From the NCBI RefSeq assembly GCF_003385845.1, contig NZ_QRDJ01000006.1:1052707-1116706 (forward strand): 64,000 bases of DNA, read 5' to 3'. Source of the stretch: Kushneria indalinina DSM 14324 (GTDB taxonomy: Bacteria > Pseudomonadota > Gammaproteobacteria > Pseudomonadales > Halomonadaceae). The notes below the pieces were generated by a model. That model was not told the origin of the DNA. It saw nothing but the letters and a program-made list of their open reading frames with translations, and did not search any database. The translations under genes and the position numbers were made by a program. Positions 1,027 to 5,416 of the stretch are shown here, piece by piece (within the stretch, counting starts at the first letter, position 1; each line of letters begins with the position of its first letter).

Positions 1027-1053
1027 TAAACCTCAGAAAACTTTGGCCGTTAA
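1027..1053 (+). promoter_or_regulatory. Sigma-28 (FliA) promoter of the large flagellin gene
   Basis: TAAA at 1027-1030, exactly 15 bases, then GCCGTTAA at 1046-1053. The consensus for FliA is TAAA-N15-GCCGATAA, so there is one mismatch. The start codon lies 35 bases downstream, as expected for a class III flagellar gene. Confidence 0.85.
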
Positions 1054-1088: not shown

Positions 1089-3216
1089 ATGACCTCGATC
1101 TCATCCGCATCGTCTCGCCTCGCCACTAATTCACTGGACAAGACTCAGCGCTCGCTCAATCAGGCGATCGAGCGGTTATCCAGCGGGCTGCGCGTTAATT
1201 CCGCGAAGGACGATGCCGCGGGTCTGGCGATTGGCAACCGAATGGAGGCGCAGGTGCGCGGCACCGAGCAGGCGCGACGCAATACCAATGATGGCGCCTC
1301 GATGTCGCTGACCGCCGAAGGCGCGCTTTCCCAGGTCAACGATCATCTGCAACGCATTCGCGAGCTGACCGTTCAGGGGGCTCAACGGCACGCTCAAGCT
1401 GGTCGATCAGGATGCCATCCAGCAGGAAATCAATCTTAACCTGAAGGAAATTGATCGGCTCAATAGCCAGGCAGAGTTCAACGGCATCAATCTGCTCGAT
1501 GGCTCAGCGGGAACAGTCAACGTGCAGGTGGGTGCCAATGACGGGGAAACGCTGGGCGTGGATCTCAACCGCCCTGGCTTCAGCGTGGAGGAACTCGGGC
1601 TGACCGATTTCACCGTTGCCGGCATCAGCGGCGAGGTGACCGATATCAATATCGTGACGGGCCGCGCACGGGATATCGCCGTCAGGGCCGGTGATTTTGC
1701 CCTGCCCGCCGGCTACAACAACCCACAGCTGATGCAGGCCGGTGCCAACACGGCCGGCTACCCGGCCAGCTGGTATACCCGCGCTCAGGATGGCGAGGGT
1801 AACACCGTTTATTTCGCCTCCAGCGTCAACGCTACTCACGAGACCGCCACGGATGCCAGCCAGGTTCGCATCGATATCAACCAGCAGCTCTACGCGCCGG
1901 TCACCAGTCATCAGGGGTATCAGATCGCGGACGTGGACAGTGTTTTTCTTGATCGCAGCGGGGCCACCCTTGCGGGTGATAACCAGCTGGTCAAAACCGG
2001 AACGCAGCACTTCATTAAAAACGGCAGTGGCTTTGATGCCACTTACTACCGCGCCGATGTGACCACAAGCCCTGCGGCCATTGAGACCCAGGTGAACAGC
2101 AACGAGGCTACGTGGCCGCCCTCGCCGGTCACCAGTATCAATGGGATATCGTTTGAAAATACTGATGCCGAGTATTTCGATAGCAACAATCAGCCGGTAG
2201 ACCGTGCCACCCTGAGCCAGACGAATGGTAACTATTATCTGACCACCTCGGATACTGACGGCAACAGCGTCTTTTACCCGGCAGACGTTGATACTGATAA
2301 TTACGTTGTTAGAGCAAATTCTGACCAACCGGCTTCAGCGCCGGTCACCCGGCCCGTCACCGAAGTCGATGGTCAGTCAATTGATGAGGCGTCACATCGT
2401 TATCTTGATGCCAACGGCAACCCGGCGCTTTTTCAAAATGCGACGCTCACACAATCCGATGATGGTCAGTACTACCTTGAGCAGGAGGGCCGCTATTACG
2501 CCGTCGTGCCCGAAAGCGTCACCGCCAGCCGGCCGCAGGTGATTGCCACCGCCACGACAGACACGCCGATTACGTCCCCTGAAAAGGCCATTACGATCGA
2601 GCGTGACATGGTCGATGGCGCCTCCACCATCACGCTTGATCCGCGCAACGTGACGGCAAGCTATACCGACCGGGACGGCCGACGCATGGAAGATGCCCTG
2701 CGCGTGGATGGCGACGGGCAGTATTTTTTACGCGCTGCCAACGGTGGTGATGAGACGACCGGGTACCGCTCCGCGACACTGGTCAACACCCAGGAGATGG
2801 GCACCCTGCTCAAGACGCGTACCGGCAGTGGCGATCTGATCATTTATTATCGGATGAACGTGCGCGCCAATACGGATGTGCCCAGCACGCACAGCACGGT
2901 CGAGCTGACGGAAGTAAACCCCGAGATTCGTCTCAGAACCCCCGATGACCCGCTCGCTGCACTCGATCGCGCCATCGCCCGGGTCGATGGCAAGCGCAGC
3001 GCGCTGGGTGCCACCCAAAACCGCATGAGCGCGATCATCGATCAGCAGGGTCATACCATTGGCGCCCTGAGCGAAGCGCGCTCACGCATCATGGATGCCG
3101 ACTACGCGGTGGAAGTCTCCCGCATGAGCCGCGCTCAAATCACCCAGCAGGCCGGTACGGCCGTGCTGGCCCAGGCCAATCAGCGACTGGACAGCGTGCT
3201 CGCCCTGCTGCGTTGA
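1089..3216 (+). pseudogene. fliC: Large flagellin gene interrupted by a one-base frameshift
   Basis: Start ATG at 1089 has GAGG seven bases upstream. The N-terminal D0/D1 region is clear ([19 protein letters not shown], then RNTNDG and [11 protein letters not shown]). At about 1376-1383 (GTTCAGGGGGCTCAACGG) one extra base shifts the frame, and the first frame ends at 1437-1439. The normal continuation ([16 protein letters not shown]) resumes in the next frame and stays open to 3216, ending in a D0 C-terminus (ITQQAGTAVLAQANQ, ALLR). Without the extra base the product would be 708 residues, larger than common 270-500 residue flagellins. The extra length is a hypervariable centre (about 1750-2800) made of degenerate repeats. 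Since no other stop is present, the shift is recent, a sequencing error, or bypassed by +1 slippage on the G run. Confidence 0.88.
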
Positions 3217-3500: not shown

Positions 3501-4157
3501 ATGTTTCGAACCCTACGGCGTTTTCCAGCAGCTCTGATGGCCACCGCGCTAATGGTGTTGTGCATGCTGCCCGGACTGTCCCAGGCAGCATCGAGCGGCA
3601 TTCAACAAGGCGACTGGCTGCTACGCCTGAAGGTGGCCGGCCTGGTGCCCACGCATGAAACAAGCAGCACTACCCCACTGGGCGGCCATCTGGACACACC
3701 ATCGACGATATTACCCACGCTGGATGTGAGCTATTTCCTGACCGATCACTGGGCCGTCGAAATGAGCGGCGGCACTTTCTCGAGCGATTATCGACTGCGC
3801 GACAGCCTGCTGGGCGATCTGGAGGTCGGCCGCATTAAAAGCGGGAGCGTCTCGCTGGTGGCGCAGTATCACTTTCGCCCGGATACTGCTATCAGACCCT
3901 GGTTGGGCATCGGTATTAATCATACCTGGCCGATAAGCATCGATCCGGAAGAAGGTGTGCCCGATTTTGAGGCCAGCAGACTAACCAGCCCATTGATTGA
4001 TGCCGGTCTGGATTACCCGTTATGGGGGCCGTGGTTTGCCAGTGCCAGCATGCGCTATGTGATGCTGCCGACTCAGCGCTTTGAAGGGGATGGTTTCAGT
4101 GCCAGGTCACGCTTGAATGTTCTGGTCATGAGCGCCGGTCTGGGGCTTCATTTCTGA
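3501..4157 (+). CDS. ompW: OmpW-family outer membrane protein
   Basis: 218 residues with an N-terminal signal peptide (hydrophobic core about 10-27, cleavage near GLSQA). The mature part has the OmpW pattern: GDWLLRLKVAGLVPT at the start, an aromatic/Gly-rich alternating pattern suited to an eight-stranded barrel, PTLDVSYFLTDHWAVE, and a final strand ending in Phe (SAGLGLHF). Family members form small barrels for hydrophobic compounds and respond to salt or oxygen stress. GGAG precedes the ATG (TATGGAGTGTTGTC). A terminator follows the stop directly, so it is monocistronic, and a sigma-28-like promoter lies upstream, which suggests co-expression with late flagellar genes. Confidence 0.85.
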   Translation: MFRTLRRFPAALMATALMVLCMLPGLSQAASSGIQQGDWLLRLKVAGLVPTHETSSTTPLGGHLDTPSTILPTLDVSYFLTDHWAVEMSGGTFSSDYRLRDSLLGDLEVGRIKSGSVSLVAQYHFRPDTAIRPWLGIGINHTWPISIDPEEGVPDFEASRLTSPLIDAGLDYPLWGPWFASASMRYVMLPTQRFEGDGFSARSRLNVLVMSAGLGLHF

Positions 4158-4162
4158 CGATA

Positions 4163-4190
4163 GACGCCACTGCTGGCGTCTTGTCTTTCT
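4163..4190 (+). terminator. Intrinsic terminator after ompW
   Basis: GACGCCA (4163-4169), loop CTGC, TGGCGTC (4174-4180), followed by a T-rich tract. It begins five bases after the stop codon and argues against an upstream start for the next gene. Confidence 0.8.
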
Positions 4191-4282
4191 TTTCCAGATT
4201 GTCTGGTGGTGGCGCATCGCCCGCGCGGCCCAAACGACAGCTTGCCGGAAACCGGCATATTGGCAGGGGGGCATTCACCTTG

Positions 4283-5416
4283 ATGCTCGATCTTGGAACA
4301 CTTCATTTCTCGAGCGCTGTCAGCCGTGGGGCCTATCTTGCCGTTTTTCTGGTATTGGCTGTGCGCCAGCGCGAGGCGCGCTATCTGTGGCACTGGATCG
4401 GCGCGATTCTCGCCTCCCTACTGGGCGCGCTGGTGTTGTTCAATAATCCGATCGACGAGCAATTACCCGTCTGGGTAAGCATGCAGCTTTTTGCCTTTTA
4501 TATGGCAAGCCTAGTGCTGTCATGGAGCGGGTTACGGCGTTTTTATGGCCATAACCTGCATTGGCCGGCGCTGCTGATATTGATTGTATTGCCATCGCTT
4601 GTGTGTCTTCCGCGGCCATGGCTGAACCTTTCGGCACATACCACGACGCTTGTGTTTTTCATGTGCGCTGCCCTTGCCGCAGGCCTGGTGGTGGTCGAGA
4701 TTATCAGGGCCAGAAGCGAAAGGCTCTGGTCACAGCTGGTCGTGGCGCTTGCCTTTACGGGTTACTGTGCCAGTTTTTTGCTGGTCGTTTTGTTGTTGCA
4801 ATTCACATCGCTACAGGTGTCGTCAAAAACGTCCTACCTGTCGATGATTTTTGACCAGGTCACCAGCATTCTGGTGTATGTCGGCTATATCGCGATGAAC
4901 GGTGAGCGCGCCAATCTGAAGCTGAGACAACAGGCCGACACCGATCCCCTGACCGGGCTTTTCAATCGGCGCGGCATTCAGCGCATGCTCAAGGAACGAC
5001 CCTGTGAAGGGGCTGAAAGCGAGCCGATGAGCGTCGTCATTGGCGATCTTGATCACTTCAAGCGCATCAACGACACGCTGGGGCATGAGGGCGGCGATGT
5101 GGTGTTGAGAATTTTCACCGAGCGCTTGAAAAGCACGCTGCGCCGCGATGATCTGGCGGTGCGCTGGGGTGGCGAGGAATTTCTGGTGGTGCTGCCGCAT
5201 ACCGATATCGAGGCAGCCGAGGTATTTGCTGAACGCTTGAGAGAGCTGACCGAAACCCACCCCTTTCAGGTGTGCGGCAAGAGCCTTGCCATCACCATCA
5301 GCATTGGTATTGCCGAGGTCGAGCGACCGGCAGAGCACTTCAACAAGGCGATCCAGCAGGCTGACAAGGCGCTCTATCGTGCCAAGCGTGAAGGACGCAA
5401 TCGGGTCTGCCGCTAG
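4283..5416 (+). CDS. Membrane-anchored diguanylate cyclase (GGDEF)
   Basis: From ATG 4283 (AGGGGG upstream) 377 residues. The N-terminal ~200 residues carry about six hydrophobic segments with short loops and no recognised extracellular ligand domain. A GGDEF domain follows (DTDPLTGLFNRRG opening, GDLDHFKRINDTLGHEGGD, then GGEEF at the active site). The product should make cyclic di-GMP from two GTP at the inner membrane. An RxxD inhibitory site (RRDD) sits five residues before GGEEF, so feedback inhibition by product is expected. The frame stays open back to 4181, but that part overlaps the ompW terminator. Its position between flagellin genes and the fli operons suggests a link to the motile-sessile choice. 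Confidence 0.88.
   Translation: MLDLGTLHFSSAVSRGAYLAVFLVLAVRQREARYLWHWIGAILASLLGALVLFNNPIDEQLPVWVSMQLFAFYMASLVLSWSGLRRFYGHNLHWPALLILIVLPSLVCLPRPWLNLSAHTTTLVFFMCAALAAGLVVVEIIRARSERLWSQLVVALAFTGYCASFLLVVLLLQFTSLQVSSKTSYLSMIFDQVTSILVYVGYIAMNGERANLKLRQQADTDPLTGLFNRRGIQRMLKERPCEGAESEPMSVVIGDLDHFKRINDTLGHEGGDVVLRIFTERLKSTLRRDDLAVRWGGEEFLVVLPHTDIEAAEVFAERLRELTETHPFQVCGKSLAITISIGIAEVERPAEHFNKAIQQADKALYRAKREGRNRVCR

Follow-up and report, generated by a model that had tools for sequence, protein, structure and literature searches.

The region analysed here (the window) is a stretch of 64,000 nucleotides from Kushneria indalinina DSM 14324 (contig NZ_QRDJ01000006.1, 1052707-1116706), near the start of which lies a large flagellin gene. 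The features of this gene are as follows.

1027..1053, + strand: putative sigma-28 (FliA) type promoter element, TAAA-N15-GCCGTTAA, one mismatch to the pattern
1089-3216, + strand: flagellin gene, large FliC type, in two reading frames
1089..1439, + strand: N-terminal flagellin reading frame (D0/D1), with the Flagellin_N match; departs from the flagellin frame near 1380
1384..3216, + strand: remaining flagellin sequence in another frame; 610 codons counted from 1384, ending with a stop at 3214-3216; Flagellin_C match
1771..1827, + strand: hairpin-like segment, the first copy of the original prediction; not supported as a module by decoy counts
1885..2121, + strand: module 1, 79 residues, from unit profiles; modelled with AlphaFold2
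2122..2349, + strand: module 2, 76 residues, from unit profiles; the fastest changing, missing in K. sinocarnis
2350..2598, + strand: module 3, 83 residues, from unit profiles
2599..2832, + strand: module 4, 78 residues, from unit profiles; divergent, the last module family-wide
2932..3213, + strand: C-terminal flagellin core (D1/D0), Flagellin_C

The product of 1089-3216 is a bacterial flagellin (FliC), both terminal domains being found, one in each reading frame: Flagellin_N matches the N-terminal frame with 88.7 bits (cut-off 26.6) and Flagellin_C the second frame with 75.2 bits (cut-off 23). The window copy is not one open frame. It is broken near 1380, and the second frame, already open before 1384 and through 3213, shows no further stop within its 610 codons downstream of the break. 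Matches to the surface region were found in five of the ten Kushneria genomes, the window's own counted, and all four congeners carry an uninterrupted frame (718, 718, 724, and 641 codons), so that the question of the repeats is unaffected by the break. In the best segment, the flagellin of K. pakistanensis matches that of the window at 80% and that of K. sinocarnis at 55%. The element at 1027-1053 resembles the pattern TAAA-N15-GCCGATAA, which we take to be that of a sigma-28 type promoter, and so would fit a late flagellar gene; elements of this type also lie 5′ of the flagellin gene in L007/L012 and L008, and L009 has only a candidate with two mismatches.

The two reading frames, together with the presence of a second, small flagellin gene just upstream, could be taken to mean that the window gene is a dying pseudogene whose surface region has no present role. 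We regard this as rather unlikely, because the 610 codons past the break contain no other stop, the sigma-28 type element is retained, and the break is explained equally well by a mutation that arose recently or by a mistake in sequencing or assembly. Moreover, dN/dS values against three congeners are 0.04-0.19 across all parts of the gene and 0.09-0.18 in the four modules, all of which are under purifying selection.

The surroundings contain further traces of flagellin genes. A stray flagellin 3′ end (829-902, and 1-78, of the window), with about 23 codons to the stop and a terminator-like stem behind it, separates the large flagellin gene from a membrane-type ORF at 90-812, and K. pakistanensis (L133) has the same remnant and the same ORF (88% identical). 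Directly upstream of the window, at 10070-10707 of L005 in the same genome, a run of N lies inside a small 277-codon flagellin gene, ending at the window start. Congeners often carry two or three near-identical genes at this site (L135 has three identical ones, and those of L021 agree at 279 of 281 positions), for which reason the N run is possibly a collapsed tandem array of small flagellin genes. On the 3′ side of the large gene, a probable outer-membrane protein (3501-4157) and a GGDEF-type protein (4181-5416) are encoded, both labelled by eye. The GGDEF-type gene also lies 3′ of the large flagellin gene in G003, G004, and G005, accompanied in the latter two by the gene for the probable outer-membrane protein; the stretch from G008 showed neither of them.

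The ends of a flagellin build the D0/D1 core, and the part between them faces outward. For this part of the window protein, the original prediction described five repeats of about 79 residues, and the five peptide starts and their spacings of 237, 225, 237, and 252 bases are located as it gave them. Repetition is indeed far above chance. A significant internal alignment was obtained: when residues 61-475 of P0001 are aligned to themselves, the highest score, found with a lag of 73-84 residues, is 145, compared to a mean of 39.9 (sd 6.6) and a maximum of 65 among 200 shuffles. The number of copies, however, is four rather than five. With unit boundaries placed at the PVT segment and not at the aromatic pair, unit profiles U1-U4, each combining the window sequence with those of three or four congeners, were compared by hhalign alongside 60 column-shuffled decoys. 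Modules 1-3 align among themselves over 71-75 columns (probability 92.4 for U1-U2, 92.2 for U1-U3, and 95.9 for U2-U3), and U4 aligns with U1, U2, and U3 over 27-34 columns (39.4, 33.7, and 80.7, respectively); in all six comparisons, the observed score was reached by none of the 60 decoys. Pooled in larger sets, 18 non-terminal units of six proteins match 16 terminal modules, chosen from 22 and comprising those of the window, three congeners, and twelve others, with a probability of 88.2 over 48 columns (0 of 100 decoys). A comparison of profiles A2 and A5 (probability 98.9) was set aside, as A2 contains two last modules and the two are therefore not independent.

The segment at 1771 behaves differently from the modules in these comparisons, since against U1, U2, U3, and U4, respectively, 20, 49, 1, and 7 of the 60 decoys scored at least as high. 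Its alignment with pooled modules 1-3 covers 14 columns only (probability 27.5; 1 of 100 decoys, a count that retains one decoy with an odd score of 133), and three of 100 decoys were equally good against module 4. It is consequently not supported as a repeat unit and is at most a stray, doubtful hairpin. The surface region accordingly holds four modules, of which three are clear copies and one is divergent. Pairwise identity between the window modules is 12-27%, and the DNA itself retains a single repeated 14-base word (1895, 2123, and 2339; two occurrences are exact and the third is at 86%), so that the duplications are old.

Module profile A4 was found in 32 of 275 Halomonadaceae genomes, distributed over nine of 24 genera. 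In a sample of 369 Gammaproteobacteria genomes it was found in two, G000 (the window's genome) and one congener; the restriction of the module to Halomonadaceae is provisional, because the listing of this sample shows just three genomes of that family. Among 74 non-redundant flagellin frames of at least 150 codons, which come from loci found by flagellin searches and do not form a random sample, 31 contain the module domain at E ≤ 0.01, including six proteins from which the profile was seeded (window, L007 as twin of L012, L010 as twin of L013, L014, L015, and L016). The number of domains per frame is four in 14, five in seven, three in one, two in two, and one in seven, counts which are rough because some fifth domains are weak matches (8-12 bits) near the 1771 region and some frames end at the edge of a locus.

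As the comparison of relatives suggested by the original prediction revealed, species differ by whole modules. Four modules are present in the window flagellin and in L007, L008, and L009, as in most Kushneria with a flagellin of this type. The K. sinocarnis flagellin has three, with exactly module 2 missing and the rest still alignable, and five are found in V. aquamarina L014 and in L049 of the same genus. Among the small Kushneria flagellins, one module was found at 16 bits in a G003 copy of 381 codons and at 26 bits in a copy of 206 codons cut by the contig end; the profile search detected none in copies of 281, 297, 300, and 304 codons or in the second, 367-codon copy of G003. The flagellins of L128, L131, and L132 (392-436 codons) have one module each. 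Five of the six single modules were aligned, and their profile matches pooled non-terminal modules with a probability of 91.2 and last modules with 66.9, each with 0 of 100 decoys.

Many flagellins above 450 codons among the loci examined have other surface regions and no module. The large flagellins of Kushneria and Larsenimonas in L017 (755-2245), L018 (3846-5342), L021 (4975-6885), L022, and L023 have a surface region of an altogether different kind, free of module matches, apparently at the same place beside small flagellin genes, and the surface region of large flagellins seems to be swapped as a block. Two adjacent flagellin frames of 827 and 907 codons in L025 (LSUCC0096) likewise have no module matches.

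The history of the array could be followed in a FastTree tree of 92 units (out of 105; at least 50 letters each) over 76 columns, in which supports were read at chosen nodes. The 24 named terminal modules form one clade (support 0.997), and Kushneria modules 1, 2, and 3 cluster by position (0.773, 0.979, and 0.985, respectively). The extra modules of L014 and L049 and the neighbouring module of L014-L016 and L049 are not a clade by themselves, but become one when a single L051 unit is included (0.974). It could be deduced from this grouping that the array predates the compared Kushneria species and that whole-unit changes followed. Unit homology, copy-number differences between species, and the unit tree all support the prediction that the surface region grew through internal duplication. 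Module 2 shows the highest dN against each of the three congeners (0.315, 0.320, and 0.325), at saturated dS (1.8-2.8). It is thus both the fastest changing module and the one missing from K. sinocarnis, as would be expected of a free outer tip.

A single module folds with confidence. The AlphaFold2 model of module 1, computed from 24 aligned units taken from the window and L012-L016 and in the only phase chosen here, has a pLDDT of 90.5 and a pTM of 0.79, and consists entirely of beta structure, its longer strands lying at residues 18-22, 33-38, 41-46, 53-61, and 65-76 of 79. The 610-residue protein, modelled from six sequences, reaches a mean pLDDT of only 47.7 and a pTM of 0.29, although a similar strand pattern is repeated across modules 1-3. 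The beads that had been envisaged on the filament would therefore be an extrapolation from the module taken singly; a single globular fold free of repeats did not emerge, which is a partial test given the poor model of the whole. In Foldseek, the best matches of the 610-residue model are flagellins (3a5x, E 3.9e-6), with a TM of 0.08 that is uninformative on the surface region, and the single module yielded neither a chain at E ≤ 0.001 nor, among the 50 matches listed, a flagellin. When the 569 chains ranked highest by Foldseek were compared by VIA-align 2, Salmonella flagellin (9gnz_A) came first, with Z 4.5 and an rmsd of 3.9 over 69 aligned residues within chain residues 181-370, followed by 3wof_B (Z 3.7). 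The resemblance of the module to D2/D3 of Salmonella flagellin is suggestive only, and a D2-like fold is to be treated as a lead, since Z values of this size can reflect a common arrangement.

Sequence searches gave weaker indications. Sub-threshold matches to PF08884 (Flagellin_D3) were obtained for three of ten units (best 0.0051), with 14.1 bits for window module 2 and 19.0 bits for the K. sinocarnis region against a cut-off of 24.2. None of the 275 Halomonadaceae genomes has a PF08884 match above the cut-off, and the 369 Gammaproteobacteria genomes gave one match, under the cut-off, which makes the family useless as a census. Against the PDB, unit profile A2 found weak autolysin matches only. 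Profile A4 matched a large adhesion protein (E 1.7e-6 over its full length and 0.4 for its best single stretch), other unrelated chains, and Salmonella-type flagellins at E 0.34-0.63. Profile A5, of last modules, found no flagellin at E ≤ 1 (best ColH, 0.0015), and A6, of single modules, found no flagellin. From these four profile searches, sequence homology to FliC D2 is not demonstrated. A phmmer search with the whole protein paired module 4 with flagellin chain residues ~313-350, with a score that may include the helical core. The choline-binding repeat is about 20 residues long; it was rejected as an identity for the ~79-residue repeat, matching one of ten units at E 0.012 and falling short of the Pfam cut-off.

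Taken together, it is probable that the gene encodes a large flagellin whose conserved core halves enclose a tandem array of four self-folding beta modules, each about 79 residues long. These modules would have arisen by old duplication of one surface domain, of a type that is still single in flagellins of 381-436 codons in the family, and whole modules would later have been gained or lost, namely module 2 in K. sinocarnis and one extra module in two flagellins of the Vreelandella group. The string would leave D1 and return to it, pointing outward, with module 4 at the base and the middle modules outermost, and may in this way thicken and decorate the filament.

A different arrangement of the same repeats, in which the chain runs out and back so that repeats pair across the array and each structural domain consists of two sequence-distant units, seems improbable to us. 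It corresponds to the topology of the known inner domains (D0, D1, and D2 of Salmonella flagellin) and, in the available part of the paper, is one of two options for tandem repeats considered in PMC6248924. Module 4 is unlike modules 1-3, and the best structural match is itself discontinuous (chain residues 181-370 for 69 aligned residues), as such pairing would have it. However, a single module folds confidently alone, K. sinocarnis lacks one entire middle module with the remainder alignable, and odd numbers of modules (three and five) are tolerated; the first two of these observations lead us to favour continuous modules over cross-paired ones. Convergence, by which Tyr/Asp/Gly-rich beta hairpins would look alike without common descent, is very improbable despite the low identity between modules and the weak matches of short Y-D-x-x-G stretches to choline-binding autolysins as well (E 0.011 or worse), as it must explain the long, decoy-free alignments of modules 1-3, the succession of same-length units, and the 14-base word at three module starts, and it is less well refuted for module 4, whose aligned stretch is shorter (27-34 or 48 columns).

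On the reading of continuous, self-folding modules, Halomonadaceae flagellins may form a graded series of self-contained modules (none, one, three, four, and five), in which the number of beads sets the thickness of the filament or the reach of its surface, a proposal that we put forward tentatively as a possibility somewhat short of an even one. If true, the choice between continuous and out-and-back folding of tandem repeats would be answered for one family. How a flagellin accommodates tandem surface repeats is left open in the available part of PMC6248924, and the effect of surface bulk on the filament is still argued. Because close relatives among environmental bacteria differ by whole modules, they would allow the diameter and stiffness of the filament, and swimming in viscous media, to be related to each module in turn.

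Such growth had been called rarely described, which is fair wording, but it is not undescribed. The giant flagellins of Oceanospirillales (Bermanella and Oleibacter) carry a tandem DE surface region that was duplicated internally and inherited vertically, according to the available part of PMC6248924, where DE regions are described as not homologous to D2/D3 and a thickening of the filament is proposed. In the open-licence literature, no paper was found on modules of Kushneria or Halomonas flagellins, and none of its papers names Kushneria together with flagellin; the available part of PMC7018530 contains nothing on internal repeats under the terms repeat, duplication, and Halomonas. Like the DE flagellins, which are those of marine relatives, the flagellin described here has an internally duplicated surface region between the D1 halves. 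The DE proteins have at most two tandem DE regions and an insert, and are large or giant (>800 and >1000 residues; PMC6248924), whereas the Kushneria-type flagellins, of ~640-860 codons, have three to five modules, each about 79 residues long.

With D2/D3 of Salmonella FliC (D3 = PF08884; PDB 9gnz), the module array shares its position between the D1 halves, and this chain is the top structural match of the single module. Unlike FliC, which has one D2 and one D3, the Kushneria flagellin has an array, with no PF08884 match above the cut-off and unit profiles that match at the E values given above or not at all. Screw-like and ridged filaments, in the portions of the reports available, have multiple outer domains per flagellin that are important for motility in viscous media (PMC8931119, PMC10256154). 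The Kushneria flagellin likewise carries multiple outer domains per chain; the key in those filaments is the contact of outer domains between neighbouring subunits. Also comparable are the one-module flagellins of Halomonadaceae (L067, L128, L131, and L132), whose surface domain matches both pooled modules 1-3 and last modules, with one copy compared to four in the window flagellin. Duplication of a flagellin surface region is thus already published, and the present case differs in the size of the module, its copy number, and the change of copy number within a genus.
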